Shown: positions 8,966 through 33,800 of the stretch, in pieces
How positions within the stretch are numbered: position 1 is the first letter of the stretch
How the letters are laid out: every line of letters begins with the position of its first letter
Translations under genes and position numbers: made by a program
Assembly (NCBI GenBank): GCA_947561715.1
Contig: OX387205.1
Coordinates: forward strand, 9,677,001-9,741,000
Origin: Ascidia mentula
Taxonomy: Eukaryota; Chordata; Ascidiacea; Phlebobranchia; Ascidiidae
Direction: 5' to 3'
Length of the DNA: 64,000 nucleotides
Notes under the pieces: model-generated
What the model saw: only the letters and a program-made list of their open reading frames with translations
What the model was told of the DNA's origin: nothing
Databases searched by the model: none

Positions 8966-11900
8966 TATTTTACTTATCTTTTGTACATTGGCAAACAATT
9001 AGTTCCTGGTTAATTGAGACACCAGAAGGTTGCAATAAACTTTTGTATTCGAGAGGTGTGATAATACAGATGACCTCAATGAATTTTAAGGATTATAATT
9101 GCAACACGGGGGCAATATAGGACCAAATCACAAATTATTGAAACCCTAAGATAATGCATATGAAAAGTGATAACTCTAAATAATTTAATTTATATTCAGC
9201 TTACTGCATCGCGAACTCCACATCGGTATGGTCAAACCACAATTGCAGTGATGGAATGTTTTGTAAGTTCAAAGACCGGCAGTTATATTTTTCAACAAAA
9301 CTAAAGTGTTAACTGTATTAAACTGCGCGCTTAAACGTTTAGCGTTCGGCTGAATAAATGATAGCTGGTATAAATAATACTTTGTTCTAGTGACTGGGTT
9401 TTCCGCATCTGATATAGGAGTTGTGGTTGGAGGTGACTTGACATGTGATCAAAATTGTTCTTCTCCATACGGTGGGTCTTTATGTGTTCATGTAACATTG
9501 CCAACTCAGACCAAACTATTTACGTTTTATGCGTCAAACTTTTCCTACGTAAACATTACTTAAAGTTCTTGTGGGTGAACGTGTTACATTTTTAAAAATA
9601 GGCAGGTTAAGGTAGAGAAGATCTATAAACAAAATATACGGAAATGTTAAAGACTGATTTTGTTCCGAAGCCCTCTGGAACTGTATCTCGGTCCCCTTGG
9701 GGCAATGAAAATCCCCAGATTGGGAACCATTGCGTTAATTTTTTTGGGGAGTTTTACGGCAAGAATCTGGTGGTCATGATTCTAAATAAAGTAAATTTTG
9801 TGTTATTTTTCGTCTGTTGCTGTTTACAGGATCACTGCCAACTGCAACAAGAGCTTGTATTCTGGACAACGGGACCGCATATTGGCAAGATCCTGTTGCT
9901 ATTAACTGCACTATAGGCAACTTAAGCTTAATAAGCGACGAGTTAGAAAGAGCTGAATTTATGGTGGCTCTTACATCCAGTGCATCGGTAACTACAACCG
10001 TCATCAACGAAGTGATCACCGAACTGGGGAAGTTTGTTGTTGCGGATAACTCGCAGGTGAACGAAAGCATGTGCACAATTTATCGTGAATATGCAAACAA
10101 ATAAGGTAACATAAAATACGCAAATATGTTTACTTGAAGTAACATATTTTCTTTGGATCCGCTTATCTCTGCTTTACTCATTAATACGCAGTTGGCAAAA
10201 TAGTATGAAAACGCTAAAAAACGTTACGTCAAAGTTTAATCACGTACTTTTCCATTTTAATCGCCTTTAACCCATTTATGTGTGTAGATTGCCGTCACGC
10301 TTCTTCAAACTATCAACAACCTTATCGTACTTGCTGGCAGCAATAACAACGATCTTGCCACCACAATTACTTCACGTTCAGAAGAGTGGGTATTACCATA
10401 GATCCTTATTATTAAACGCTTGGCTGTTGCCTTTATTTGTTTAAAGAACAAGTTTGATATGTTTTAAATTACTTTTTCAGCTTATTTTGTGTAAGGCTTT
10501 TACCAACGTACATGTTGAAGATGTGTTACTTTAGGTTAACGGACGTGGTTGACAGCAAAGTGCTCCTTAATTCAAACTTCACAAGTTACAGCGAAATGTT
10601 GAGCAATGTGGCCATTGCGAACTTTATATCAGGTAATCTGTGCATGTTCCTGTTCCCTTCATTACTTTTATCATGAAGCCCACAGAAATTATTCCTAGTT
10701 GATTCAAATAGCTCATTTACGTCTTTCGAAATGCGAAACGTTTGGAACCTGTGTTTTTTTCTGATATCGCAAGATCAGAAAATAACCGTTTGTACTGTTC
10801 AGACCATTTTTTTAAGATTTTTTCACCCTATTTTAAAAAAGTATTTCATTTTGTCGTATTGACAGCTACAGGAAAATCATGATTAATAATCCAATGTAGG
10901 TACAAACAGTGTTTCATTTGGAACTGACAGGACTGATTCAATGGCTTGGTTCGAAACAGGAACATCGAATAATTCTTGGTTAAACTCTGCTCACATAACA
11001 GCGAGTGAGTAAACAAATGTTTGTTTGTGATGTATTGTGTTATGTTACTTAACCCTTTCCAAACCAAATACCTCCTCGGGGGTGGGTGCGCAGTGTTTTT
11101 GAGTGCCAAGTCCTCCTTCAGGGTGTATAGCGCTGATTTCTGTGTAACAGTCGCTTAATATCGATTTCACGCTTTATCAATTACTTTTCATGCGGAAAAA
11201 GAGCAGAGCTAAATAATGATGAAAATTTTGTGTTGTAAAAATTGGGGTCCCTCCAACTAAAGCTGTTTTCAAATACGGGGTTACAGGTTAAAAAATAATA
11301 TGCTTAATAACCATTTTAATCTTTAATTTTGATAAAGGATGAATCAAACTATTTTTGATAGTTTTTTCCTAAAATGAAAACATTTCTTTGGCTCAGCATC
11401 ACGCGCTGTTGGAGATTTTGGCTTCAAAGCTTATTCCAACTGCCTACTCCATGGAAACCAGTGCGACAGAACTGGCATCACATCCAGCAGTATTGAACCA
11501 TTTTTTAACAGCATCATTATCGGTGCGTTGATACCTCCGAACACCCAACTGGACCTCACATTCGAGTTATTTCTGGTACGTGCATTGGGATTACGTAACT
11601 CTTCCTATTCTCCTACAGGACCAACGGATGTCCATTAAACCATGGGTTTATGACTGTGTGTTTTCCTGTTAACGTTTAATTGGTGGCGGGATCGTTGGTG
11701 GTGATTTAAGGGCGAAGATTGTACACAACGTAAGACCTGTGTTTACCCGGGAACTCAAGCTTACGACTTATTGGAAAACTAGATATCATAGTCACGGGTG
11801 TTTGGCGTAAAAACAGTTTTGTCGTCCAGTGTTAAACGCTGTTCCTCGTCGTACGATAAAATCAGAACTTTTAACACTTCCACATGTTGCTGGATGCCTT

Positions 11901-13111
11901 TTTTTAGAATTTTTATTGTAAGTAACGAAACTAATACGGCACATTTCGTGTTTATTGTAAGTAAACAACTGTAGGTATTTTGACCAAAAAAATATATTTG
12001 AAAACCTTCAGCTATGCCATTACCAACCCTTAAACTTGATTTGATTTAATTGCAGTCGTAAACATTGTTCAAACATTTAATATTAAAGTGAATCATAAAC
12101 AAATCAGACTCTAGTAACGCCGCACCGGATGGGGTTTGAACTATCAAACCTTCGCATTTATGGTCCGTGGCCTATTAATTAAGTAAAACAAGCTTTTCAA
12201 TTCTGTATATATTCGACGTTAACAACTGTTCACTTTATCAGAACGAGGCAGAATTTCAGGATGTCGCGTGCATGATATGGGATGGAACGCAATGGAAAGT
12301 TTCAGGATGTCACATAACAAACAGCGATCTAGCGTCAATAAAAAGCTCAGTCACATTTCAATGCACAGGGAGTGGAGATTACATCGTGCAAACCGTAAGC
12401 AAAGACTCCATCTTTACACATTCCAATACAGTTTTCGACATACTTCTTAACAAACCGCAATTTATTACACTAAAATCGCAGAGTTGAGTTTCAAAACTTA
12501 AATATGAGATGAAAAACTTGACAAAATTTGGGCCCAAAATTGCAATAATATAAATTCATCTGATTTTGTCTTGTGTACAGAAATATCTTCAAGAGGTTGT
12601 CGTTTTACCTGGCCTAACTGATGCTGAGATCGCTGGGATTGCGGTTGGAGCAGCCGCTGGTGTTGCACTTATCGCTGGAGGAGGTTACTATGGTTATTCG
12701 CAATCCAAAAAGAAAAAGAAGAACAAAGTTAAGGTAAACGAGAAAAGCAGAGCGTTTCGTAAAGTGCGCGGTCCTTGTTAATTTATCTGGACTTCTTGTC
12801 ACGTCCAGTTTACCTGGAAGTTGTGCATTATCTTTGAATAAAATATGTGACTTGTGACATAACAAACAGCAAAAATTTGGAAATAGTTTTTTTTTATTCA
12901 AATGAAAACCATTGCACTGTTTAATAAAATTACTCGAATGGGGTGAAAAAAAAGTATTTTAACTTGAATGCAAGTTCAGTTAGAGGCAAATCAGTTTGGA
13001 GTCACAACTACGTACATGTCCGATGTGAATTAACTATACAGACACTTTCAATATTTTTTGCAGACTATTGAACCAATAGAGGGGACGCATGAAATGACTC
13101 CGGTGGACTAG
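8350..13111 (+). CDS. Single-pass membrane protein with HormR/GAIN/GPS-like ectodomain (adhesion-GPCR-like, no 7TM)
   Basis: Exons 8350-8395, 8461-8538, 9200-9262, 9391-9471, 9830-10056, 10288-10385, 10535-10632, 11397-11575, 12242-12394, 12581-12733 and 13064-13111 join in continuous phase to about 407 residues. The order is: signal peptide (MNKFAIGVYFMLLTA); a partial EGF-like piece (CLGGFKGEACDI); a HormR-like Cys/Trp block (ACILDNGTAYWQDP); a GAIN-like helical region; the strand GALIPPNTQLDLTFELFL; and a GPS-like stretch CMIWDGTQWKVSGC. Where a GPS has two cysteines and the HL-T cleavage triad, this protein has one cysteine and CTGSGD. One hydrophobic segment (IAGIAVGAAAGVALIAGGG) is followed by a lysine-rich tail ending THEMTPVD. 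The next gene is its paralogue. No GPCR helices follow before that gene starts. An alternative 3' end is listed separately. Function unknown; cell-surface adhesion or sensing is inference. Confidence 0.78.
12105..12185 (-). repeat. Possible tRNA-derived SINE fragment
   Basis: On the minus strand a B-box-like GTTCAAACC lies in GGTTTGATAGTTCAAACCCC, followed by a G/C-rich segment. The upstream part carries GGCC and GACC blocks. A proper T-arm does not fold, so it is not a functional tRNA. A decayed tRNA-derived SINE in this intron is the simplest reading, at low confidence. Confidence 0.25.
12734..12842 (+). promoter_or_regulatory. Possible alternative 3' end by intronic polyadenylation
   Basis: If the donor after 12733 is not used, the frame runs on through KSRAFRKVRGPC to a stop at 12779-12781. 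A canonical AATAAA lies at 12837-12842, all inside the last intron. Splicing to 13064 instead gives a tail ending THEMTPVD, which resembles the paralogue's TIDSTEMT. The sequence therefore supports two possible cytoplasmic tails; which is used cannot be told from DNA. Confidence 0.4.
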
Positions 13112-14942
13112 TTGACTACGCTAGCTAAGAACAATTCCACCCACTCCACCCACGCAACACCTATTACTTTGCACGTAAAATACAATTTAGTAAACCAAGT
13201 CCTAATTTGAAACCAAACCGCCGTAGCGCGTCGTTTGCGCGTACCAACAGTTACTATCGCCGCTTCCATGGCAACGGACAAACACAACGCAGGGGGCATC
13301 TGTCGTGTGATGTGTGCTGTGGATGTCTGTTTGATGAGGCTCCTATACCAGTGCTGTTTTCTTCGAGGCAAATGTTGTCGCCAAACATCGCCAATGAACT
13401 GCCTTATGCAAACCGCAGGATTAAAGTACAAACATTGCCTTTGAGACATAACGGCAGCACAGGCAGCAGTCCTATATAACTAAATTGTAAGTATTTCCCC
13501 TAATATATGGTGTTTGATCTGTTTCCATGCTTTCACCTTCCGTTTTTGCACTTGCGCCTTTCGCAACAAATTAAAAGCTCCCATATAAGGGAAATACTTT
13601 TTTGCTGCTTTTGGCATTTTTTTCTTTCCAGTTATGTAGATATAGCCGACCTAAGCTGTTCGACAATGGAGAGCACAAGATGTTCACTTGCATGATAAAT
13701 GCATAGTTTTCTTAATGTATAGAAAAAGTACACAAAAAATTGCTCGATATAAAATCTACATGTTGTTAAATTTACTTTCGAAAGTGGTTCCCGTGATTTG
13801 TTGGGCAATGTTTATGTCGCAATGTTGGCAAGAACAAACCCATTGTCGCGTAAACTCGTTCAAAAAGAATGGTAGTTGTTCATACTTACGGTCGTACCAA
13901 TGCGTATGTATTAGTTCAAAAGTACAGAAAAAACACTTCCAAACACTGGCTATTTCGGCGCAGCGGGATCAAATGGACGCTTTGAGGTGTCGCATCACTG
14001 TAAATTGCTGCAATGAGCTCATATAGTGTAAACAGTCGAAGCGGACCGACGTTTAAACACACATGTAAGGCTTTCGTTTTTTCGAGTAATATTACCTGTT
14101 TATACCTATTTTATTTTTGAAATATTTCAAGGGTATCGATCGTCGTACGTTGGACAAACAAAGAACACCTTTTGGTAAGGTTTCATTAGTTGGGTCGTAC
14201 AGTTGCCGCAGTGGTTTGATCTTCAAATTTTGAACATAACAGGTGTTGAACCGTATCTGATAGGGGTACGGACCTGGAATGATTAAAAACAAGTCAAAAT
14301 TTAGCGTATATATATATAGCTTTACCAATGTAACACAAGAATTCGTAAACCATAAGCGTGAATTTTCTCTCGTTTTGCTATTTGATACTCTTGTCAACTC
14401 TATTTAACGTGTACGGAAGTGAGTTGTATCAAGTTAATGTTTCACCTTACCCGATTAGCTCACAACGGCGCAATGAGGCCTTACAGAAAACTGTCTTATC
14501 ATATGTAAACTTCGTTGCCATAGGCAGCAAGGGACGCATTTTCAGTCGTACTGTTTGTTGTGCAGTGTTGCCATGGAACAACAGTTTCGCACTGTTGTCT
14601 TGAAGCTGCACAACTATTGAGATTTTAATTGAACTTAAATATGTTTTTTATTCCGCGCATTTGATTTGTACGGAATACGTCACAATGACAAGTGACGTAG
14701 CTTGAGTCAGATATTTTCCCCCCGGCGTATTTGCAATTTATGGAAGAAGCAATATTACAGAAAATTGTTAGTTTGACGTTTTTTAGTTGTTTTCATTCAA
14801 GGTTTACTGAGTTGGAAAGGTTTTTTAACCGTATTGTTTTGAAATACTCCAGACACATTTTACAGTAAAATACATATTTCGGAGACTATTTTGGATTAGA
14901 ATATTGCCGCATAGAATTTTCGTGTCATTGAAGTCCTCAAGC
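13112..14942. other. Intergenic region
   Basis: Apart from a possible lone minus-strand exon at 14096-14273 (separate entry) nothing recognisable was seen. Several open frames of 60-113 codons exist, but they lack signal peptides, known motifs or a consistent exon chain. Confidence 0.5.
14096..14273 (-). CDS. Possible orphan internal exon, unrecognised product
   Basis: On the minus strand an acceptor (ATTCCAG) at 14274-14280 and a donor (GTAAT) just below 14096 flank an open frame of 178 bases. It includes PYPYQIRFNTCYV and QLYDPTNETLPKGV. The composition looks protein-like, but no family was recognised and no neighbouring exon could be joined. It may be a real exon of a small gene between the two GAIN-like genes, a relic, or chance. 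Confidence 0.25.
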
Positions 14943-17900
14943 ATGAACGCTTTCCTAAAGTTACTTTTTATTATCACCTTCATTGGGACCGGAGTTTCTG
15001 GTCAAGGTAAGATGAAAATTTGAATAAAACGTAACGGCTGATTTATAGAAACACAAAAAGCTAGAGCAATTTTTAATCTGTAACTTTACAAAACAATATA
15101 GGGTCTGTGAAAAAAACATGTTAACGCACAACGGATTAGTTTTAAACTATGCGTTTGCGATCAACACAGGGCGTAGTCTTTAGATAACATATATACACAC
15201 ATTCTTTACACAGATATGGTGCGTCGCTTGAACGAGCTTATGGAAGGTGAAAGTAGTGGGGAAAGTAAGTTTTATTTTATCTCTTTGCTGCAGTTTCTAA
15301 GTTAGACTTGTATTGTACATCATTCTTGGGAATGTGGCTTTTATATCACCATTACCTGAAAATACGATAAAAAAATACAAATATTCGCTTGAAGTAAGCC
15401 ACGAATTGCATACATATAAAGACCCTATTCACAGTAACTTAATGAATATATGCCAACAGACCCATGTCAGAGCGATCCTTGTCCTAAACATTCCGACTGC
15501 AATCCGAACGGCGAAACCCAGCTGTGCGCGTGTCACGAAAATTACATTGGCCCATCTTGTATTCTAGGTGAGAATATATCATATACTTGTGCATGCTATT
15601 GTGACTTATATGCTCTTACAGACGATATATTACCTTGTTAACTTGGTGTTTAATACAAGAACAATTAGTTACTTTTGAAGAGCGTTAATGTGATGATCTT
15701 TCGAATTGTTTTTTTTTTGGAAGTCTATTCTCTCAAAAAAACATAGACATGTAACTGTTATTGTAAACCTTATTGAATGCCCACATAGTGTATTGTTTCA
15801 ATTTTAAACCGCCCTAAAAAATAACTGTTAATGATTCTTATGTATTTAGACCCTTGTTTTGAAGCTGGCGTCTGTGAACAGGGTAATTGCGTTGGAACTT
15901 GTACAGGTCAAGAGTGTTTTGCCAACTGTACCTGCAACGAAATGTGGTTCGGGGAAACGTGCGCTCTGCGTAAGTCATTAAAACCTGTTATTTCAAAAAA
16001 ATGTGAGCAAAATTTTTCATGACCATTCCCTTTCTGGTTTTGCAAAAAGTTACAAATTTGGGAGTTTTGGGACGATAGGCTGTCAATAGTGCATTTAAAT
16101 ACAAAACTATTTGATAGCAAACAACACGTAATGTTGCCGAAATACAATTGAATATTAAACCTTTAATAAGTTAGCTACATGCTTATAGCCACTACATTAA
16201 TGCCAGTTAAAATATGGCCTTTTCCTTACGTACCACATAAGACCAGTACCACAAACGGTTAATTTCAAATAAGTGATGTTTTAGAGGAATATTGCCATAC
16301 AAACGAGCCATGTCATGGAGGCAAATGCACGATGGGAGCAACCTCTCACGAATTCAAATGTATTTGCAACGAAACGTGGACTGGAGTCATGTGTGATATA
16401 CGTAAGTGGAAAAGATGGATAGCAAATAAATATGTTTAAAACTTTTTTTATAATTTTTTTTCTTGGCTTGTCATTTTAACGAATCTGAGATAAAGAATGT
16501 CTTGTTTGTTTTACGCACACACCGCGTCGTTCGAAAATTCAAACCGTTTTGTCGAGTGGATTGTACCGTAATGAGATTGTAGCTCATTAACGCTCTCATG
16601 TGACAATTTTGATTTTAACACAAGCTTGGATTATTTGGGTTAAAATAAGGAAAAAATCTTATTTAAACCAAATTTTGCATGCAGCTGTTTGCCCAGCAGA
16701 AGGTGGTTACCCTGCTACTCCTGGTGGTCAAAGCGCGCCATCTAACGACACTTGCACAGAAGGTTTATACGGTAAGCTAAAACAACTGAAAACTGTGTGG
16801 AAATATTAGAAAACGGAAGGCTTTTGTAATAAATCAGCATGATATGCACAAAAAACACAACGAGGCTTTTAACCTCATTAAAAGCAAGTTTGTACCCGAA
16901 AAAGAAACTTCCACATTGTGTTTAAATTACCTTTCAATACCTTTGCTGTAACAAAAGTTAAAAATACAAACTATAATAATATTTGACGTTGGTGTAATCT
17001 ATTTAAACATATTTGAAATGTATGTACCTAATTCTTAATTTGCTTTTATAGACACTGATGATGCTTTTAACGAAGCGAAATATATATGTCTAATTAAAGA
17101 AGACTGAAAGATTTTAACCTGAAACGAAAGTTTCTTAGACAGTTGTTATTTGAAATGTAGTTCGCCTTTTATTTGTTCATCGCAGCTGGGAAACCTACCA
17201 GTTCTAGAGATTGCGAATTGCTGATTATCGATAGTGCGAAATGGAAGAATGAAACGACTTTAAATTGTTCGGTGGGACTCGAAAACATTACCGACCCCAA
17301 CCAAAAGGCTTCTACTTTGGAAGTTTTGACGTCCAATCCCAACGCAGTGACCACCGAAGAAGTTCAAACTTATACTAAAATCCTTGTAGACATTTCCGGT
17401 ACCTCCAACTTGACGTCGAAGGTATATATGTATATCGAGTACATCAGTCATTTTCTTGTGAAAATATTCATTGGCTTGTGAAATTTTAATTAGTTGGAAA
17501 ACCGAACAAATTCTTGTTTGTTTATTGTGTCTGTATATATTAAATTTTAATTTAATGCAAAGGTTTGACAGTAAACAATAAGTAACCCAGTAACAAAAAG
17601 TAACACACTAACAAAAAGTAATACAGACACAATAAACAAACAAGTATTTGTTCGGTTTTGTCGGAATTTGGTTAAAGTACAGTATATAAAGTCTATTTGA
17701 CATTACGTTAACAGTGCACTTTACCGATATTTCAGACAGCTGACTCTTTGATATCTACAACGAACAATCTAATGGCCGCTGGTAGCTCTGCATCCAGTGC
17801 AGATCTGTAAGTTTTTGTCAACAAAAATATACGCCACAAAACATATATACTATAACACAATATTTGGATTTTTCAAAATTTGGTAACTTTTAATTGATAT

Positions 17901-19764
17901 TTCACTTTAGAATCTTTATGTCACTCGCAAACATTGGCTCCAACTTGCAGTTACAAGATTCCCCAGGTCGAATAAGCGGTGATATGTACTTCAGCCAAGT
18001 CGAGTCTTCGCTTGGCGTGCTTATATTGAAAGGTAATTCCGTTTTAATAAAATGACACTCGTACAAGTTGTAAAACTTACTGATTGTAAGTTAAAATAAT
18101 CATCAGATGCGAAAACCAATAATCCCAAATCACTTTAAGATGAGAGATATGAGGGAGCATTAAGTACTACCGAATCTACGTGTACAATGGCAAATCCCTT
18201 GCTATCGGTATATTTCAGAAACTGGTGCAACTCTCAGGGCTGTGAATGGGTGGACAATGAACATCGACAAACTTCTAGCGAGAGAAGATCAGTTTGCTGG
18301 CGTTAGAATAACATATGGAACAAATTCTTCGTCACCGGTTGGCAAAAACTATATCTCAACTACAAACGGTAAAAAAAGTTTAGAAAACATACTTTCAGCA
18401 GAAAAGTTTCTATTCACGTCTTATTGTTATTATTATTATTGTCGTTAGTGTTCAAAAAGTGCCATTGCGGAAGGGACGTTTAGAATTTTTTGGCTAGTAG
18501 TGTATTTTATTGGTGTACTAATTTGACATTTTATTGAACAAACTGTGGTTTAAATCTACAGGCCAGAAAGTTTTATTTGTGATGTATGCAAGTGATGTCC
18601 TGTTTGCTACCGAGCCAAGAGAAACAATTAACAGTATTCTATTCTCCGTTGATACCATAGGGAAGATCACGCTCAAATTCCAACTTTTAGAGGTGATGGT
18701 AACAGAAACTAACTATACACAATCTAACGATTTATTTGATATTGTTTTTCAAATTTCTGTGCATAACTGATTTCTTTGATTCGGTCCACGAAAAGTAAAT
18801 TTACAATTACAGTGGTACGACATCAACATGGACGGTTACCATGACAACGGTACGCACGTGATTACCCCTGAGTGCGTTCAGTGGACGAACAACAGTGAGT
18901 GGAAAGCTGGAAACTGTAATGAAACTCTTACCTTCGAAGAATCCAACATTTTCTTCAATTGTACGTGTGACAACACAAACGGAACGTTTGCCGTTAGAAT
19001 GGTGGGTACACATTTATTCCAAGTGACATAAACCGCCCATTGTCAACAACAGGTCATATAAACATAAAGATACTAATTCGCCGGGTCGTAACGTTTGCCC
19101 ACAGATATTCAATAAGTAATCAACTAATTGTTTTTAGTCCAACTTGGTGGCAAACAAACATTCACAAGTTTTAACGAGAAAACTATAACCATGTGTTCTT
19201 TGACAAACATTTGGCGACACGTCGTCATTTCCAAATAAGTTTAACCCAACTTTATCTGCGTGTAGACAGAAACAGTTAAGCCAATTACAACCGCTGCAAC
19301 ACCATTGTCTTCCGGGACAGAGGGAGGTGGTAGTGGGGGATTGGAGGACTGGGTGATTGCTGTAATTGCCGTCGGTGGAGTGGCTGTTATCGTAGTGGTG
19401 GCGATTATCGTATATTGCTGTTGTTGCAAAAACAAAAACAAAGGCAAAGTCGAGACTATTGACAGTACAGAGATGACGGTGAGTTATACAAAAGTTGTAC
19501 AGGTTGCAATTCATTGTTGGTTCAAAGTAGCAGCAGCAAGACATACAATCTACCTACTGAAATTACACGAAAACACGCTGTTACAACATAAGTGGAAAAA
19601 TAGTCAAAAAGTTTAAAAAAAAACAACAAGAAAGTTTGTCTGATAAGGCCAATAAATTTTAAGGAAGGCTATCCTAGACTCAATTCATGTTGGCTTTGCA
19701 GGAGCAAGCGGAGGTTAAAGAAAAAAAGGACGAGGAAAGGCCGGCGTCAAAAGAAGCTTGGTAA
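14943..19764 (+). CDS. Single-pass membrane protein with EGF repeats and GAIN/GPS-like ectodomain (adhesion-GPCR-like, no 7TM)
   Basis: Fourteen exons: 14943-15006, 15214-15264, 15460-15567, 15850-15969, 16285-16401, 16685-16771, 17186-17421, 17736-17806, 17911-18032, 18219-18368, 18562-18692, 18813-19001, 19266-19478, 19702-19764. They join in phase to 573 residues. The order is: signal peptide (MNAFLKLLFIITFIG); acidic MEGESSGE as in the upstream paralogue; three EGF-like domains, one exon each (cores CACHENYIGPSC, CTCNEMWFGETC, CICNETWTGVMC); a Pro/Gly linker; a HormR-like block; a GAIN-like region; and a GPS-like unit with CVQW, WKAGNC and CTCDNTNGTFAV. The two GPS cysteines are present, but NTN replaces the HLT cleavage triad, so self-cleavage is not expected. 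A Gly-rich stalk, a membrane segment (WVIAVIAVGGVAVIVVVAII), CCCC and a charged tail ending ASKEAW follow. Its penultimate exon has been copied to 26.9 kb. Confidence 0.82.
17055..17090 (+). ncRNA. Hammerhead-like core motif (weak)
   Basis: CTGATGA, a GCTT/AAGC hairpin, GAAA, then a U/A-rich hairpin ending in GTC follow the order of a hammerhead catalytic core. There is an unpaired T before stem II, and stem I pairs poorly. It lies in an intron of the gene at 14943. A degenerate relative lies at 45079-45104. Probably a decayed repeat-borne ribozyme; activity is doubtful. Confidence 0.3.
17498..17659. mobile_element. Short palindromic element with about 38-bp inverted repeats (MITE-like)
   Basis: The left arm 17498-17535 (aaaaccgaacaaattcttgt...) is the reverse complement of the right arm 17622-17659 (...acaagtatttgttcggtttt), with about one mismatch across 38 bases. 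The 86-base interior is AT-rich and includes short direct repeats of 'aaaaagtaa'. No target-site duplication was clear. The element sits in the intron between 17421 and 17736. A non-autonomous foldback element is the likely explanation. Confidence 0.65.
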
Positions 19765-21892
19765 GACGGTGAAGCTAAACCTGAAGCAAGTTAGATGGGT
19801 TCACCCATCATTTACCCTTACGGCAATTATGTGGCCCGTTTGTTAAGTTTGTTTTAATCTTCGATTTACCTGATGAACTCGCACTGTTTTGTATGCTTCT
19901 ATTTTGTTTAAGAAGTGCCGGTTCACAACTGTCAAATCAGGTACAATTTAAAAAGGCTGGAAAAACTTTGGTCGCAAACTAAATTTTGACTAATTTGTTA
20001 CGTGATACGTCCTCTAAATAGTGTTTTTTCCTGTGATTTTGTTGTTTGCTGTAAAAAGTTAGAAATTTTAGGCTTTTCGGTTTCGCTTTACGTAAAGCTT
20101 GCTTGTTTCTTGTTTGTGTTTATCATCCGCCCTAATTTATAAGCAATGAATATTTTTATTTGTGATTTTTTACAAGCGTTTCCATTAATAACCTTTTCAG
20201 TTCACAATTCTCACACATGTGTGTAGATATTTTTACATTGTTTGAGGACTTTTCTCCATATAAACTCAAACCAGATGATATTGGACAACCAGAGAAAAAC
20301 AATCTTAACACGGAAAGGACATGGGTACCACCTATGCTTCTTAACCCAATCCTGACCACCACACATATTTTCGGATTTCAGTGGAAGGCTAAGGTTCCGC
20401 AACGTAATTGACTGGAAATCATATCACTGTGACCTTGCTACCACAAAAGGTGTCAGGCCTCTAAACTGCGCCGTGCCTCTGCTGTCCATGGATGACTTTG
20501 TAAGCAGACAAATGTAAAGTGCATGTGTAACGTTTATCTTTCTCAAGACTCGTAAGACGTACTTCAAACCAGTAGGGTATATATGTCTTCATTAAAAAAA
20601 CAAGCGATCAGAAAGAAAGCTCTGTACACAACGAGTCCTTTGCGTTACTGCCACACATACATACTCTCAGGTAAACGCACCAAAAGCAGTCATAGAAAAC
20701 ATATTGTCGGTCGCTAGAGGCGTTAAAAGAGATGACGATAAAAACATGTAACACAGGTTCCAAAATTCACCATCAACTAACGTCAAACAAGTATGTAACT
20801 GACAAGAACCCCATAGTGAAAAAATGAACATAGCGCATAACCTGAACATAAGCATAAAGGATGATTACTAATTTTTAAGAGAGCGTGCGTTCGTTACAAT
20901 GAGACAACAAGAATATAACGTGAGTGATGAAAAGGGATTACGAAAGCGTTTTTATAACGAAGTGTCAGAAAAATTTTAAATTGTCTAACCGGATGACAGA
21001 TGGCTGTGGGAGTTCTGCAGGAAAACCTAACTCCGTCTGCATTCTTCGTTTCGTCAGGTCATGAACATACGTGGTGTTCAGGATTAGGTCCAGAAACATG
21101 TGTGGTGATATATTAAATAAATATTAAACCCTGGTGACGCATTTTATCATGAAGTTACATGACGTTGTAATAGAAACTTCCAAAAACTAATTTATTGTAA
21201 AACCAATTTACCTCTGCAGTGAACAATAAAAAAGCGATTTGTTATTGCTTATTTTGTTCTTTTCGGTTGGGTAAAGACTCAAAGAATAATTAGTTAAACT
21301 GAGGTTAGTTGGCCGACTCAGGTAAAGTGGACCCATGAAACATTTTGTTAATTTAATAAATATATAGCGCCACCTTAAACCTGAAATTTTGTCACGTTGT
21401 TTACATGGTTCCGCTACGCTGGCCTCACTCCAAAACATTCGTTTTTTGGATTGTAGCCGACGATATACGGTTTTAATGTTTACGAACACACGCGTTCTAG
21501 CACCCAAAAACTTCGTATTATTATGTTATGGCGAATTTAATTTAGTACATTAAAATTTTGTTTCGGTTAACCAAATGAATTTCGCATTTGCGTTGTCTTT
21601 TATGAGATTACGTCGTGTAGTATTAAGAAGCCAAGTGCGGAATCGTACGTCAAACAAAATGTTTGTAGTTACAAATTGGCATTTTGTCCCAATTTAATTT
21701 TCTAGGATCCTATCACTTAACTTAAAGATGCAACCATATTTCTTATTACAAAATTTGTCTTGTCATTTTACAGGACAGCAAGCTTACTATCAATATATGA
21801 CAACACTTAATGTGAAAGGTTGATATCCGGACATAGTCACAATACCCAACACCAAGCAACCTCTAGCTGGATTCCCTGGCAATTGTTTTACT
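19765..21892. other. Intergenic region
   Basis: The first ~450 bases (to about 20215) are the 3' flank of the gene at 14943 and are partly repeated at 27100-27490. The rest shows no recognisable exon on either strand. The promoter of the ErbB-like gene should lie just before 21893. Confidence 0.55.
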
Positions 21893-24800
21893 ATGGAGGT
21901 AGCAATTCTTACTTTGTGGGTTCTTGCCATTTGTCAAGTTTGCACTTCACCAGGTAACCATGCTGTATATTATATTCATTTGTTTTACAAATAATAAATT
22001 AATTGGGTCAAAAATAGTTTTGGGACAATAAATTAAATTGATGTTGGTTCTCAATACTAAATTGATGTTGGTATTTTCGTGTGGTGATCCATACTTGGTT
22101 TTGCTTTGATTTTAAAATAAATAACTAACAGTTTGTTTTGTTAACAGAAAAAATGTTGTATGCATTATTAATGCATAAATATTTAACCTTTGATGGCAAT
22201 TTACTTTCCAAAGAATAATGCTTTTTAAACAAGATGCTTTGTCACAATGGCTATTTTGAATGGGTAGTTCATGCATGCAAGCGATATTATCATCTTAAAA
22301 TAGGTCTGAGGGTCGAAGAAGTAATATCGTCATGAAAAAATTTACTCATTCTTCATGTGTTGCCAGCAGCTAGCTTCCTGTGGTGAAGCCTCCAGTATGG
22401 AATTTCTTTGTGAATACATGTTATGTTTCAGCCACTCTCCAACGTCATGGATTTGGTTGCATTTAAACCATTCAGCCACATTATAAAACTGGCCTTTTTA
22501 ATGCTAACCACCAACTTACTGTTTTTTTATCGCCAATTATATACAATTTTTGAAGTTACTTTTTCACAATAAATATGCATGCTGTTATGTTCCGATTGCA
22601 AACAGTTACAACAATAAAAAATATCCAACCTTAATATGGCAGAAACATTTTGTTTTATATTCAATTTTTTTTAAACTATTATTGTTCTTAAACTACAGCG
22701 AAATTATGTATTGTTTCTAATTTTCTTTACAAGATTATTATGTACACGCATATCTAAGTTTTGTATTATTATTATAACATTACACCATAACATTTCATTT
22801 TTTATATACCTAAAAACATGAATATACTCATGATAATTAAATTTACATTATTTATATTTTTAAAATCAAAGTTTGTTTCATTAAATTTAGATCCCATTAA
22901 ATTTAGAAGATATGCCCACCAACTTTAGAATGTACCTTTCCAAAAACACCAATTCTTTTGCACCAGCCAGATCAGTGTTGTCCAAAGACTGTTTGTGGTA
23001 AGTGCTTTGTCACATTTGCAGTAGATATAGTTGCCACATGTTTAAGAGCTCAAAAGCAACTTCAACAGGATTCACCATTGACAAGTTTATACATAGTTAT
23101 TCTTGTTCAGTGCAAATATGCTCTGTTATCAAAACAATGGCTCTCAATAGCTCATTTTACATGTATCGTAGCAATAAATAGTATATATGTGTGTTAAGAA
23201 ATAGAAACAGACAGTACCACAATATGACCTGATTAAAAATTGTATGAAGTATTTCAAAACTGATTTCCATGAAATCGACCCACAAAGCTGTGCAACATGC
23301 ACAAATTTTCGCATAGTTTACATTGTACATTTTTTTGACATATTGGGTTGGAAGCAAATCCTTTTTTACAAGTATGATTGCTTAATGTTTTAAACTAAAA
23401 TAAAAAAAGAAATTACTTTTTGACCAAAAGTAGACAAATTAAATCCTGCTTCAAAACAAAATGGCATAAAATGCATGCTGTGGTCATGCCATTAATTTAG
23501 TTTTTCCGTTAAGTTTGCAAAGGAACGAACACAAGGACTTCACGGACGCCTGTGAGTTCAGACAGTCACTACAGGGATTTGGAACAACGTTATACGAATT
23601 GCACACTCGTTGATGGAAATCTCGAACTTGTGTTGATTACTCCAAATCCTAACAGCAATGTTGTCAAACCTATAGAGTTTACAAAGGTGCAATATTTTAA
23701 AATGTTAAACTCTGTTTAATTGTATATAATTCTTTTCAGTGGGATAATGATGAATCAAATAATTTTGCTATGTTTATATTATGTCTATGTTTGATGTAAT
23801 GGTATACCTTAAGTAGCAGCAAATTATGTTTGTGCTTTTAATCTAAATAATTTAATCAATTTTGACAAAAACAGTATTTATTCATTTATTTAATGCTCCC
23901 ACATTTCAAAAACTCCAAGTAAATAACAAAAGTTGGTATTGTTTGCTTCTTAATAATTCTTTTTCTCTGGTTAGCTTCTCATGTGAAACATGTATATACA
24001 TACAATAAAATGTCTTTATATATTTACATAAATTTTAACCATATATACTCATAATTTACTTAAATCACAATACTACGCTGTTGTTGATCAATGATCTTTT
24101 TTTTGTAAAACACATAGAGCAAGTGACGGGATACATCTTGATTTCACGAGTTTTTGTGGACTACATTGACCTCTCATCATTGCGTCTTATTCGTGGCACT
24201 GAAAAGTACACTGATAGCAGTAACGCAAACACACGCTGCCCTGTGACAAACAACCAATTCGTGGGTGCCACAAGGCAGACAATATGCACTCTTTGTGAAG
24301 CATTGTGATGACAAAAAACAGAATTACCTACGTGAATTACACATGCAGAACTTAACAGGTTTGTATGTTGTAGGATTATTCTCTGTCCTTAATGCACAGT
24401 GTATCAAAACTGTTATGAGGGATGAAATTCCGCTTTGTACAATTTGTACATGTCTGTGTTGAAGCAATATTTTATTATAAATGATCAAACAGGTTTTGAG
24501 CTTTGTAAATGATTCTGGCAATCATTCTCCTTTTTATGTTACAATAGCCACAACGATTCATATTTATAATAATTTATGTCACATGTTTTCAAGTCATAAG
24601 TAAAAAGCTGACTGATTTTAGACCACAGAAATAATTTCCATGCTTCTTGTGTTTGCAACATTTTGAACTAATACCTCAATATATGTCCAATAAAACTCTT
24701 TTTATGCAGAAATATTGGATGGGGATGTTGGGTTTGTCAACAACAGCCTCTGTAACATGAACAATATCATCTGGGAAGGGGAAATATTTAAACTTGGATC

Positions 24801-27085
24801 AACGCAAAAGTTGATCGACAACAATTTTAAGAACTTCAGGCAATGTAAGTGAAAACAATATTTTGTCGGTTTTACTTAAAACCATTCTTATTTAGGTGGG
24901 GAATCAAATAAACAACTTATAAAATAAACAAAAAATAATATTCACATCAGCTTAAGTTACTGCATAAAATAAAGTAGGATGCAAAACTGCATTTGTTTTT
25001 CAATCAGGTCCGACATGCAATTTTTGTTCTCCTGTTTCTGTCAAAGGCATTGCTCGTACTGACTACTGCTGGGGAAACTCAACAAGCCTCTGTCAAAGAA
25101 GTGAGTTAAGAATTTTAATATGACATGTTTTGACATGAAACTATGTTTAGATTTATCAATAGTTTACTGGCATCTTATGAAATGGTAATACTAATACAAC
25201 AAACAATGTCCAACAGTATGTTGAAAAATTATGACACCGGCTTAGCTGGCGTATGTTAGAGAAAACAGTTTGCTTGTTTATTGAACCAAACATTTGGTTT
25301 TTGTTAACATAGCTGTAATACTGTAGTAAACAAGTATATACCATGTAAAAAAAATTTCATCAATTGCAAATAGTTTTGAACATTTGTTGTAGTGTTACCT
25401 AATAGGTATATATACATTTTCCTTTAGTTACCAGAAGTGTGTGTCCAAACTGCAGAGGTCCATGCAACCGCAAAGGGGTTTGTTGCAGTGATTCATGTGC
25501 TGGAGGGAGTCTTGACACCATGCCTGCAATCATCGCAACAAATGAAAAAGCAAAGTATTGTGTGGTATGAATAAGACATTTTAGGTTATCCAACAACAGC
25601 TAAATGTTTTGCATTTTGTTTATTTGATATTTTTGTGTGCATGTCATCTGTGTAATATGGAATATTTTTTTGTATTTGAAAAAACATCCTAGCATTGTGA
25701 GATATGGGTTTTGTCTGGAGGTTTTTGAACCTGACAGGTTGTGGTTTACACATGAAACTATCACAGACTTTGATATCTCTGGTATGTGTAAACATTCTTT
25801 CAACATCAATTCCCTTTATACTGAATATAATAATTATTTCAACGTGTTTATGTTTTGCTTCCAAGTTTCATGCCATGAGAATTGCGACCAAGGTTGTTGG
25901 GGAAAATTAAAAACACAGTGCAGAAAATGTAAATATTTTACCGATGGAACAAATGCTTTTGGACAATTCACAAGCAAGTGGATACTAGACCCACAAACTG
26001 GATATGTTATGCCTGGGCGTAATGTAACTACTTGTGTCAAGGAATGTGATTTTGGAAAAGGGTAATCTATGCATTGTTTACTTAAGTGTTTACCTATTTT
26101 TTCCAAATGGAATTCAGCATTTTACACATTATTTTAACTGTAAAATATCTACTACAATCAAAATAGAGTATGCAGTTTAATTTTTTTCAATGTTGTTGTG
26201 TAACACTGGCATCTCTAGAAACTGTGGCTACCAATTTTTGAAATTATACTGTTGTTTTTGTTTAAAATACAGCCTACTGTTCACAATAGTTTTCTTGCAA
26301 GACTCCTGCAAAAGTTTTTCAAACCCCTGTTTTCAGTGAATTTTGGGACAAGAAACTCCCTGAATGTGTCATCTCACTTAAGAAACTTAAACACAGATGT
26401 TTTTTTGCATATACTAATTGTTTGCGCAACATATTATTTTCCTTTACATTTATGTTGGTCTTTATGCCAAAGTTATTTTTATTTAATGTTCACATTTGGA
26501 TCCCACCTTTTAAATATTTTGTATCACAAAAAAGTTCTAATTTTTCCCTTAATTTGCTTCCAACACTTTATTTTTGCAAAAGTAATTATTGTCCATCATT
26601 CTGCTCTTGTAATCTTTGTAATAACCTTAAATATACAATGCTTCTATCTTTCACTTAAACAGGGTCTATCCATCTGATAACAAGGAATGTATTCCCTGCC
26701 ATAAAGAATGCAAGACAACATGTCATGGATCTTCATCTTACAACTGCACTAAGTAAGATCGGTTTCTGAAATCAAGAGTTTTTCTTTGAAGGAAATTTCA
26801 CCACTTGTAGACATATCACATGCAACTTAGTCACAGTCAAACATGCACAATTTTTAAAGAGAAATATAGCAATGTGTTTTTTGACAAACATTTTGTAACA
26901 CATCGTCACCAAATAAGTTTAATCCAACTTTATCTGCGTGTAGACACAAAACAATCAGGCCAAATAGTGGTGGTGGACTGGAGGACTGGGCGATCCCTGT
27001 GATAGTCGTCGGTGGAGTGGCTGTTATCATAGAGGTGGCGATCATCGTGTATTGCTGCTTTTGCCAAAATAAAGACACTGTGTAA
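21893..27085 (+). CDS. Chimeric ErbB/EGFR-ectodomain protein with captured transmembrane exon; no kinase
   Basis: Exons 21893-21953, 22971-22997, 23523-23686, 24120-24219, 24275-24358, 24710-24844, 25008-25100, 25428 to about 25559, about 25866-26061, 26663-26752 and 26944-27085 give about 405 residues. After a signal peptide (MEVAILTLWVLAICQVC), the protein follows ErbB receptors through the first L domain (TNCTLVDGNLEL, VTGYILISRVFVDYI, LRLIRG, ELHMQNLTEIL, NNIIWEG). It continues through the cysteine-rich domain II (CDQGCWG, a dimerisation-arm-like stretch, VTTCVKECDFGKG, CIPCHKEC). The ErbB part stops there: the second L domain, domain IV and the kinase are absent. The last exon encodes GGGLEDWAIPVIVVGG, a hydrophobic segment with one Glu, CCFC, and ends NKDTV. 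Its phase fits exactly (AA joined to A). The 25559/25866 junction is uncertain; 25564/25880 also works. A 55-base intron is assumed at 24220-24274. Confidence 0.72.
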
Positions 27086-27490
27086 ATTATTTTTTTCGTT
27101 TGTCATGTTTGTTTTACTGTTTGATTCACGCAATGCACTCACAGTGTTTTTGTATGTTTCTTTTTTTGTTAAGAAGTGCTGGTTCAAAACCAACAAAACA
27201 GGTACAATTTAAAAAGATATGGTTTGGAATTTCGCATGCATACTTGGTAACTTGTTAAAACTTTCACTTATATTGTTGCGTTATACATTGTCTAAAATAG
27301 TGTTTTTTTGTGATTTTGCTTGTCTGTTTCAAAAGTCAAAAAGTTTAGGCTTTTTGGTTTTGCTTTACTCATCAAACAAGTTCTAGTGTTTTTGTGTGTA
27401 TTCGCCTTAAATTGTATAAGCAATGAATATTTCACATTTAATTTTTGACGATCAGTTCCATTAAACATTCAACTACGAATCACAGCACGA
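26820..27490 (+). repeat. Partial duplicate of the 3' end of the gene at 14943-19764
   Basis: This segment matches about 19139-20215. It includes the intron just before the transmembrane exon (shared 'ccaactttatctgcgtgtag' at the acceptor), the transmembrane exon itself, and about 350 bases of 3' flank (shared 'aggtacaatttaaaaag' and 'ataagcaatgaatat'). The copy lacks the last intron and last exon of the source, about 330 bases. Within the copied exon there is a deletion of about 45 bases and a 1-base insertion. The copied exon is read here as the last exon of the ErbB-like gene. Confidence 0.8.
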
Positions 27491-28603
27491 CCTGACACGC
27501 GATGGCAGTAATGTGCAATTTTGGACAGTCAAATAGCCTTGGCGTTGGAACAGTAGAATACGTACCTATTCAATGAAAAAGGCATTTAAAAATTATTGAT
27601 TCGAGTGATCTTGATCCACTTTACAGAATATTAGCAAGATATTAACGCATGTTTGTTCGGTCGACCGCAAGACAGACGCCGTCAAGCGTTTTAGCTACAA
27701 GTTTGTACAGGTGTACATGCTGTTACCACATTGCCCGAAGCGGTTTGTTATAGCTGAAATAAATGCTTTCCACAACAACTTATTGTGAAATACAAATCTC
27801 ATTTTCGCTTGATTTATGCGCAATTGACCAATCCCTTTCGTGTCTCGTATACTTGCACTTTCTAAATGCCTCGGGACATAAAACTTTTGCCGTCGGCGCA
27901 ACTGTCTAGCAATGGACAAAAAACGCAACAGCTCACGAGGCGTTTATCAAACCGACAATAAAGATTTTATTGGGTTCTGAATGTACCTGTACTTTGGCAA
28001 AACAGTGTAATGTCAGTAGTTAATTATAATACTAGCCACCGATAGTGTATCGAAAAACTGGCAACCACAGGCTTCCAAAAGGGGGTACGAATGTGGCATT
28101 AACTGCTGGTGGTCGATGCAGCCGTCAACAAGCTACTAGTTCTTCCTGTTACGTCACAATGCATGCACTCATAGTGGTAAGCATGGTTAACGATTGTATG
28201 GGAGAAACGTGTGTTGTTGATTAGGTGACATTTACAGTGGTTACAGCACAGAAACCGCAACAATTGAGCTAAAACCATATCTAGCTGGTGTTAAAATGAA
28301 ATTGAATCAAAATGTTGTTCAGAAAGTCCGACAATTTTAAGCAGCACAGCTAGGCGGAAGTTGTACAGCAGCAACATGCATTTTTGAAACAGTTTTGTGT
28401 ATTGCTATGGGCAGTGTTGTTTGTCTTGGTAAATGATAAAGTTTAATAATTATATACGAGCTTTTGTGTTTCGGGTGATGTCGGGATGGCGTTTGCTTAA
28501 CAAGCACCCCTTCAAACTAATATTTGTCAAGTCTTTCCTATAACCACAATATATGTTCGTTAAACAACGTTTAATGTCTTTGACCCATGAAGGTTAAGCG
28601 ACA
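27491..28603. other. Intergenic region
   Basis: No exon was recognised on either strand. It should contain the promoter of the gene starting at 28604. Confidence 0.5.
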
Positions 28604-31645: not shown

Positions 31646-33800
31646 CTACAATACGTATTTGTCGAATATAGCCTGGACCTCTCCGAACACAGTGTCAACG
31701 TCCTGTTCGGAGTTCACCTTTAAATAAAGTAACTTTTTGAAGAAGTCTCGCCGGATCGATGTTAACGTTGATTGTAATAAAAATCTCGTAACCACAAGCA
31801 AGAAGAACAGTTCTTTTAACATACGATGCCATACAGCAAGAATACCACTATTAAGTAACTTGTTTGAGCAAGGTTTTCGACACTGTAGAACAGACTACAT
31901 CAACGATCTATTTGTACACACAGCAAATGAATAAACTAGCTTGTGTGCCGACATTTTAAACAAGCCGAGTTAAGTTCGGGTTTAAACAACATTGTTACCC
32001 GCTCTATTTTCCCCTGCTGTTTGTAGTGGTCGATAACGGGTTCTGTGGCTTCGACAAAGGTTTTTAGGCGCAATTTGATCGTCTCTTCGTTGTCGTCAGC
32101 ACGGCCGCTGGTTTCTGCTCGCTTGAGCAACCTCTTCACCATGGTGTCTTGTGAGGCGTCAACCCACAACACGAATGTACACGGAGCAATCTATAACGAC
32201 ACTCATAAAGTTTGCTTAAGTGTCAAGCTGATACAGCGTTCAACATTGTGGAACTGTTGGTGAGCATGTTTAGCAAGGGTGGGCCAAAGCATACGCTATG
32301 AAGTTCCTTTGGATAAGAAATATTCACTAAATATATTCTTAAAAGCGCAACAGGTATCCTTACGTTAACCTTTTCGCAAAAGTGCACCTACCATACTTTC
32401 AAACTCTTTGCCTTGTTGCACTTCACGCGGATATCCGTCTATAAGAAATCCCTTGCTGTCTTTGTGCTTTTCCATATTGCTTTGGATAAGCTTTAACACT
32501 GTCGTCTGTATTTTCACAAAAAATACGCATTTGAAACACATTAAAAATGCCACTGTCCACATACAGAACTACAGTAAGTCATTTATAACTTAAATGCCCT
32601 TGTTAAATTTACAGTAATAACATATACACACATGTACGAGCAGAAAATTAAAGTTTGAACATGCCATAAAACCATCGGAATATACTCTCTGTACACGTAC
32701 TTGCCATTGCACAGAGTTCAATTTGGTGTGACCTCATGATTTATTTATGACGAAAGGCAAACACACAGTCTCGTAACGTAACTGTACACTGATTTCACAG
32801 TGCGTTGTACAAAATTCCAATTACTAACCAATGGAACCAATTCTCCTCTATCCATGATCGCCTTGAGCTCGGCCCCTTTTTCGCTACCAGATGCTACCTC
32901 AGCTCTGAGAAGATCACCCGATGAAAAATGGGTGAAGCCGTATCTTGCTACGATACGTTCGCACTGTGTACCCTTCCCAGACCCGGGACCGCCTGAAAAC
33001 ATTTTCCCGTTCATTAAACGTATTAACATTCCCCCAACATTAAATACGGGTTGCAATTAATAGTAGAATTGAAACAAAACAGGACAAACAAACATGGTTA
33101 GTCGCGGGTAGAAAAAACTGTATACACCGATTGTTCATAGAATGTTGTTTCGTCGACTACATGCAGCGTTAGCTGTTAAACAATAATGAAACGAAAAAGT
33201 TGAATTTATTCACAGAACACGTAGCTTGACACTACGCCGTTGTAAGGTGATTAACAATATGAGGTAGACTACAGTTCGTATATAAAGATTTTGAAAAGAT
33301 TTCAATAAATTGTGCGAAAATATAGAAAGCTTTTAGGCGTGTATAATAACTTGTTTTATAGTTGGTCATATATATTTTTTGCTACGGATGACAAGATACA
33401 TGTGCAAAATGAACTCGCTAGGTCAAACTAGACACCTTTTAAACAAGGTAATTTAATCACGAAATGCCGGTTCTATATTAGCCCATCGACCTCACATCTG
33501 TCATCCCAAGGGTAAAGGGCAAGATAACACGCGCTCGTGGCAGAGCAAGGTCGTTGCTACTGAAACATACTTTATTGCCTACCGCCTCTGTGTGTTTATC
33601 GTTTGTCAACATTTAACTCGTAAAAGTCACAAAGTGACAAATTTTAGTGAAGTTGGCCTCTGCACAATAGGTTTTGTACATTGCCTAAAGTTTTGTATGA
33701 GTTTAATACTTAAGGGTTTAAAACCTAAACCTAACATCAGTCGGATATATTTAGTTAATCCGCACTTACCGACAACAAATACAATCTTTTTGGACTCCAT
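31646..33800 (-). CDS. AK1: Adenylate kinase, cytosolic AK1 type
   Basis: Catalyses ATP + AMP = 2 ADP. Exons on the minus strand: 33800-33770, 32992-32829, 32505-32392, 32190-31999 and 31717-31646, all in phase, 190 residues (vertebrate AK1 is 194). Residues 1-10 are [10 protein letters not shown]. The P-loop [11 protein letters not shown] follows across the first junction. Next are [14 protein letters not shown] (AMP-binding), [36 protein letters not shown] (LID arginines) and [15 protein letters not shown], and the end is IFDKYVL. There is no long LID insert, so it is a short-type kinase. No N-terminal targeting sequence is seen. The small AK5-N-terminus-like gene lies 1.1 kb upstream on the same strand. 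All catalytic motifs look intact. Confidence 0.95.

Follow-up and report, generated by a model that had tools for sequence, protein, structure and literature searches.

A partial ErbB copy and a borrowed transmembrane exon in Ascidia mentula, possible remains of a long-kept kinase-less receptor

Can a piece of an ErbB receptor gene that has no kinase be held in the membrane by an exon taken from an unrelated neighbour? The question is raised by a 64,000-nucleotide stretch of the Ascidia mentula genome (contig OX387205.1, here C73; C73:9677001-9741000, hereafter the window), in which positions 21893-27085 had been read, in the original prediction, as ErbB exons for a signal peptide, L domain 1 (L1) and domain II closed by a captured transmembrane exon. 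Our genome searches covered 79 contigs, 195.8 Mb in total. The copied transmembrane exon is real and old, with a 3' flank as diverged as the ErbB introns; the proposed receptor is unreadable from the present sequence by ordinary splicing. A kinase-less anchored ErbB may well have been a past product of this locus, and the best reading of the data is that the copy was under purifying selection for most of its history.

The features on which the argument stands are given below in window positions, with the three places where the frame breaks numbered as lesions 1 to 3.

19140..20188, + strand: source segment, comprising part of an intron, the transmembrane exon (19266-19478), the last exon and the 3' flank of the neighbouring gene
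21893..21953, + strand: exon 1, carrying the start codon and the signal peptide, with exit in phase 1 (alignment to intact exon 1)
22907..22997, + strand: exon 2, Cys-rich, VWC-like, start rearranged, lesion 1 (alignment to the intact gene)
23523..23686, + strand: exon 3, start of L1 (alignment to the intact gene, EGFR matches in PDB)
24120..24358, + strand: exon 4, L1, extra base near 24264, lesion 2 (alignment, splice models)
24710..24844, + strand: exon 5, end of L1 (alignment to the intact gene)
25008..25100, + strand: exon 6, start of domain II (alignment, EGFR matches in PDB)
25428..25564, + strand: exon 7, domain II, exit phase 0 (alignment to the intact gene)
25620..25626, no strand: deletion junction, cause of lesion 3 (blastn against the intact gene)
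25866..26061, + strand: counterpart of exon 14, domain IV, entry phase 1 (Pfam, alignment)
26663..26752, + strand: counterpart of exon 15, domain IV, exit phase 2, AA| (Pfam, alignment)
26801..26822, no strand: boundary where ErbB similarity stops and the copied neighbour segment begins (alignments)
26823..27464, + strand: copy of the neighbour segment 19140-20188 (genome DNA search, alignment)
26944..27085, + strand: transmembrane exon of the copy, closed by TAA and phase-matched to the exon end at 26752 (translation)

The prediction had supposed a full-length ErbB encoded elsewhere, and such a gene was found. A search of the genome with the window's L1 and domain II protein returned 16 matches, of which the 12 strong ones (E 1.7e-8 or better) fell in two places only, the window and C73:1287316-1289581; the four weak ones (E 0.13-0.38) lay in a second ErbB locus at C73:1.93-1.97 Mb. 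The region C73:1.27-1.29 Mb, on the same chromosome as the window copy, holds a full ErbB gene, kinase included, which we resolved into 23 exon pieces, three of these being versions of a single exon. Whichever of the three is used, the model runs without a stop for 897-898 residues, through L1, domain II, L2 and domain IV into a membrane segment and the first part of the kinase, and more kinase exons lie beyond it; the exon borders are predictions from the frame and the likeness to EGFR.

When this intact gene was compared by blastn with window 21507-26800, nine of eleven pieces were colinear, introns and 5' flank included, and the other two were short and off-diagonal; upstream of about 21500, the matches to ErbB were at chance level. 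The copy retains exons 1-7 and 14-15 with introns and phases alike, and the predicted signal-peptide exon (21893-21953) aligns to exon 1 of the intact gene. Between window 25619 and 25627, 6872 bases containing exons 8-13 are absent, which removes late domain II (exons 8-9) and all of domain III, that is, L domain 2 (exons 10-13). The last two ErbB exons of the window are therefore domain IV, and the claim that domain II extends to 26752 has to be given up: the intact exons 14-15 that align to them come after domain III, and 25866-26061 and 26663-26752 match PF14843 above cut-off (E 9.2e-8, model positions 2-81 of 132) and PF00757 under its cut-off (E 0.0021). Against PDB sequences this part gave weak matches only, the best to fly EGFR (E 0.00038).

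L1 was identified correctly (PF01030, E 8.4e-16, in a hand-joined model; ordinary splicing leaves exon 4 out of frame), and its exons match EGFR chains in PDB at E about 1e-30. Domain II, reduced to exons 6-7, is incomplete and does not carry a full dimerisation-arm region; PF00757 was not reported by Pfam for the N-terminal part of the copy, and at one position where all five outgroup rows have Cys, exon 7 has Ser. The membrane-bound decoy of L1 plus domain II that had been proposed does not correspond to what is present, since the deletion took late domain II and domain III, and what comes next is a part of domain IV. That the locus is kinase-less was supported, with no tyrosine kinase in the window among the 61 matches listed genome-wide (132 of 333 candidates scored); the predicted half-ectodomain product was not, as its frame cannot be read by ordinary splicing. 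An open stretch at 25702-25781, with a donor score of 7.4, was dropped as an exon because it is intronic in the intact gene and a 10-base gap shifts its frame. In both ErbB copies, exon 2 (window 22907-22997; C73:1290127-1290231) encodes a Cys-rich stretch ahead of L1 that looks like half a VWC domain, judging by spacing alone; at E up to 1, Pfam gave PF01030 alone for the protein that includes exon 2.

Window 26823-27077 and 27097-27464 align to 19140-19440 and 19837-20188 with 71-72% identity, and a genome-wide DNA search with 26800-27480 gave three matches, namely the copy itself and the two source pieces, which bears out the claim that the transmembrane exon was copied together with its flanks. 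Positions 19441-19836, covering the end of the source exon, the next intron and the last coding exon, have no counterpart in the copy, and 27441-28600 did not match 20151-21600. The alignment also shows the predicted single extra base near the copied acceptor, as well as a 42-nucleotide in-frame deletion in the stalk. As had been proposed, the ErbB exon ending at 26752 leaves AA| and the open exon at 26944-27085 supplies the base that completes the codon; such a fit has a chance of one in three, and an in-phase last exon does not prove that the chimeric gene is intact. Between copy and source, 34 codons show eight silent and eight replacement differences, and the best 19-residue hydropathy is 2.85 in the copy vs 3.29 in the source.

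The source exon lies within window 9700-19760 (+ strand), where one or more neighbouring genes show GAIN/GPS-like pieces and one membrane segment; the source gene reads as a GAIN/GPS-like protein that would cross the membrane once. Three of its pieces were compared with Pfam: one matched PF22259 (GAIN subdomain A) at E 0.0017, below cut-off, another had no match, and the membrane piece gave weak matches below cut-off. By eye, the open frames at 9790-10104 and 17161-17481 are similar.

Is the gene readable? Lesion 1 sets eleven acceptor-repeating bases in place of nine at the start of exon 2, and lesion 2 adds one base to exon 4, where the intact gene is open throughout. Lesion 3 is the clash of the exon 7 exit, in phase 0, with the phase 1 entry of the next ErbB exon, which arose because the deletion fused two introns of different phase; ordinary splicing does not put the domain IV part in frame with exon 7. 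Owing to these lesions, five of the nine joined splice models that we translated stop after 32-171 residues: 32 with the splice sites of the intact gene, 80 with a new exon-2 acceptor, 137 when exon 2 is skipped, 91 when exons 2 and 4 are skipped, and 171 with an alternative exon-1 donor. Two models with a 55-nucleotide intron in exon 4 stop after 272 or 306 residues, and the remaining two reach the transmembrane stop, at 429 and 432 residues, by using several cryptic sites. The extra base of exon 4 has a single possible bypass, the cryptic 55-nucleotide intron 24220-24274. We rejected the idea that this split is a conserved short intron, since the intact gene has a single open exon there, and the split in the window is therefore a lesion.

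The sites that a bypass would need score low. In a splice matrix trained on the 23 donors and 22 acceptors of the intact gene, a small set that favours its own members, the lowest training scores were 3.0 for donors and 1.0 for acceptors; the bypass donors (1.4, 1.9) and acceptors (-0.1, 0.2) fell below all training sites, the early exon-7 exit being left unscored. Among the copy's other acceptors, the homologous one of exon 4 scored 0.1, the new exon-2 one 1.7 and the transmembrane one 2.8.

Broken as it is, the copy carries the marks of past constraint. Over 386 ungapped codons, leaving out those around the exon-3 gap and the exon-4 shift and the split codons, copy and intact gene differ with a silent divergence (Ks) of 0.359 and a replacement divergence (Ka) of 0.078, giving a Ka/Ks of 0.218 (bootstrap 0.147-0.303). 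The ratio was 0.226 (0.138-0.349) in exons 1-7, 0.191 (0.078-0.465) in the 93 codons of the two domain IV exons, and 0.81 in exon 1 alone; exon 2 has 30 of 30 residues identical, with six silent changes. Gaps are about ninefold rarer in exons (three events in 1216 aligned bases vs 75 in 3413 non-exon bases), and half the non-exon rate, as for a copy neutral throughout, predicts 13.4 events where three are seen (P about 0.0008). The Ka/Ks and the gap depletion contradict a copy free of purifying selection since duplication. If the ratio of the intact gene is assumed to be 0.10-0.20, the copy was neutral for about 4-26% of its life, or 26-45% at most at the upper bound; with 0.05 assumed, the figures are 35% and 53%. 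Polarising 56 differences with distant outgroups (second-locus unit 3 left out, outgroup rows incomplete, gap columns dropped) placed nine on the copy and six on the intact gene and left 41 unresolved. The constraint points to a late loss, if the gene was lost.

These values make it very improbable that the truncated copy was dead on arrival, never functional and with a last exon in phase by accident: such a copy would agree with the deletion and the frame breaks, but a copy neutral since birth should show a Ka/Ks of at least 0.5, whereas we found 0.22 with an upper bound of 0.30 and the ninefold shortage of exon gaps, and broad gene conversion was rejected as the cause of the exon similarity and low Ka because Ks (0.359) is close to the intron distance (0.374).

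The two copied parts have similar ages. The ErbB introns, aligned singly, give a neutral distance of 0.374 (0.349-0.406) from a raw mismatch of 29.5%, and one long alignment outside the exons gives 24.3% raw mismatch; the 3' flank of the transmembrane copy gives 0.356 (0.286-0.439), close to the ErbB Ks. This fits one event that placed exons 1-15 beside the duplicated end of the neighbour gene; if it was a single event, the constraint acted on a kinase-less gene.

We favour a reading in which an ancient DNA-level event would have copied the ErbB 5' flank and exons 1-15 from C73:1.28 Mb to C73:9.70 Mb, where the end of the copy met the duplicated 3' end of the adjacent gene for a single-pass membrane protein. 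This copy would have been kinase-less from birth, with the neighbour's phase-fitting transmembrane exon serving as its anchor, and purifying selection would have followed, most likely on an ErbB ectodomain held in the membrane, where it bound up ligand or formed unproductive pairs with the full-length receptor. The 6.9-kb deletion and two further lesions would have come later and broken the frame, so the locus in this assembly is most likely a recent pseudogene that has lost its function. Taken whole, an ancient kinase-less ErbB with a borrowed anchor, long maintained and recently broken, seems to us somewhat probable.

Several observations weigh against it. Equal ages are no proof of a single event, and the distances are uneven: single ErbB introns spread over 0.22-0.52, the 5' intron part of the transmembrane copy is lower at 0.145 (0.078-0.219), and so is the ErbB 5' flank at 0.227 (0.161-0.306). 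The Ka/Ks of the transmembrane exon, 0.24, has an interval (0.06-0.96) that decides nothing on selection, and in its membrane segment a Pro and a Glu stand in place of the Ala and Val of the source. The bases that break the frame may be bypassed, and an assembly error could account for the single one in exon 4.

The strongest competitor, which we still judge unlikely, is that the duplicate began full-length, kinase included, lived on as an additional receptor tyrosine kinase and shed its 3' half only in recent times, while the transmembrane copy beside it never served as an anchor. It accounts for the exon constraint without any kinase-less function, and one genome cannot give the order of events. 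However, the 3' flank of the transmembrane copy has diverged as much as the ErbB introns, the 61 listed kinase matches (132 of 333 candidates scored) include no remnant in the window, and the in-phase transmembrane exon becomes a one-in-three event.

A step less probable, and in our view decidedly doubtful, is that the gene is alive and makes a product of some 430 residues that combines L1 and the borrowed anchor with pieces of domains II and IV, by way of three bypasses: an exon-1 donor 11 bases downstream or the skipping of exon 2, the splicing out of the 55-nucleotide segment of exon 4, and an exon 9 entry 14 bases downstream or an exon 7 exit five bases early. In its favour, two of the nine joined models get to the transmembrane stop, Ka/Ks is low in the exon groups tested, exon 2 keeps all its residues, the transmembrane copy shows less divergence in its 5' intron than in its 3' flank, and the homologous exon-4 acceptor itself scores just 0.1, which tempers the argument from weak sites. 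Against it, the scored bypass donors and acceptors lie below all intact-gene sites, all three bypasses are required, and a conserved cysteine is lost.

On the reverse strand of the second ErbB locus (C73:1906001-1982000, 76 kb fetched) there are four tandem L1 units, at about C73:1973758, 1969832, 1956959 and 1939437, and one kinase, at about 1910637-1916414. The same signal-peptide exon precedes two of the four units, and by eye units 2 and 3 seem to leave their domain IV exons in a phase other than that of the kinase-adjoining unit. Over 146 codons, Ka/Ks between units ranged from 0.19 (0.07-0.44, units 2 and 3) to 0.78 (0.30-2.22, units 1 and 2). These units are possibly kinase-less ErbB genes or alternative ectodomains and, with four L1 units to one kinase, ErbB ectodomains that lack a kinase may therefore be no rarity in this genome. 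That they arose repeatedly here, in the window and in the tandem units at C73:1.94-1.97 Mb, and that the window one is still made as a membrane-held decoy through new splice sites, is a combination to which we give little credence.

In the intact gene, the last domain III exon is present in three tandem versions of 120-123 bases (C73:1280523-1282764, reverse strand), each open and with entry and exit phases alike (phase 1); they could therefore be mutually exclusive exons in the ligand-binding domain. On another contig, C70:16743678-16783717 (+ strand) holds four L-domain and three Furin-like matches with kinase matches close by, perhaps an insulin-receptor-like locus.

Elsewhere in the window, Pfam identified exon pieces of a nuclear hormone receptor ligand-binding domain (2350-2694, + strand, E 1.2e-7), an adenylate kinase (32745-33056, - strand, E 5.6e-22) and a Sushi-repeat protein (41700-42251, - strand, E 4.7e-6); the window gave no tRNA and no Rfam match at gathering score. 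The sequence ATTCTATTTGAATAAG, which we take to be the Ciona spliced leader, occurs 1684 times in the genome when followed by GTA (846 forward, 838 reverse), and the pattern read backwards does not occur; among the places listed, the occurrences form arrays with a spacing of about 720 bases.

How does the locus compare with known systems? Here a receptor fragment lies joined to a membrane anchor from an unrelated gene, in a case that can be dated and with both sources still on the same chromosome, and the measured constraint suggests that the animal may have drawn some benefit from a kinase-less ErbB. In the titles and opening abstract lines of open-licence papers on Ciona or ascidian ErbB, alternative EGFR exons, kinase-less ErbB and exon shuffling, the locus is not described. 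Duplicated pseudogenes with exon capture are a known general kind, and with them the copy shares its kept introns, partial extent, deletion, frameshifts relative to an intact paralogue and foreign 3' exon; it differs in that, for the greater part of its existence as a duplicate, its exons were under purifying selection. With ErbB/EGFR receptor tyrosine kinases it has in common the signal peptide, L1, the start of domain II and, out of frame with exon 7 by ordinary splicing, part of domain IV, but it is without late domain II, domain III, a transmembrane exon of its own and the kinase, and its frame is broken in three places. From a kinase-less decoy receptor one would expect a continuous frame to an anchored or secreted product, whereas seven of the nine models stop before the transmembrane exon.

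Two known cases come nearest to the action proposed here, as far as the parts of the sources available to us describe them. Herstatin is a HER2 variant that retains intron 8 and blocks HER2 dimer formation, a secreted splice product of the receptor gene that binds the receptor through a novel tail (PMC7679030). It shares with our locus a kinase-less piece of ErbB ectodomain followed by a non-ErbB C-terminus; our locus differs in that it stands apart from the receptor gene, takes its membrane segment from a different gene and has a product that is only predicted. DAF-2B, a truncated receptor without the signalling domain, sequesters insulin-like peptides (PMC10358897), and the IRLD proteins of C. 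elegans are receptor L-domain proteins reported or proposed to modify insulin/EGF signalling (PMC9262388). These too are receptor L-domain proteins or, for DAF-2B, a truncated receptor lacking its signalling domain, but they belong to another lineage and do not derive from this gene, and an anchor borrowed from a neighbour is not among the features described for them in those parts. By analogy with herstatin and DAF-2B, a membrane-held kinase-less ErbB would most likely have acted by ligand capture or by unproductive pairing.

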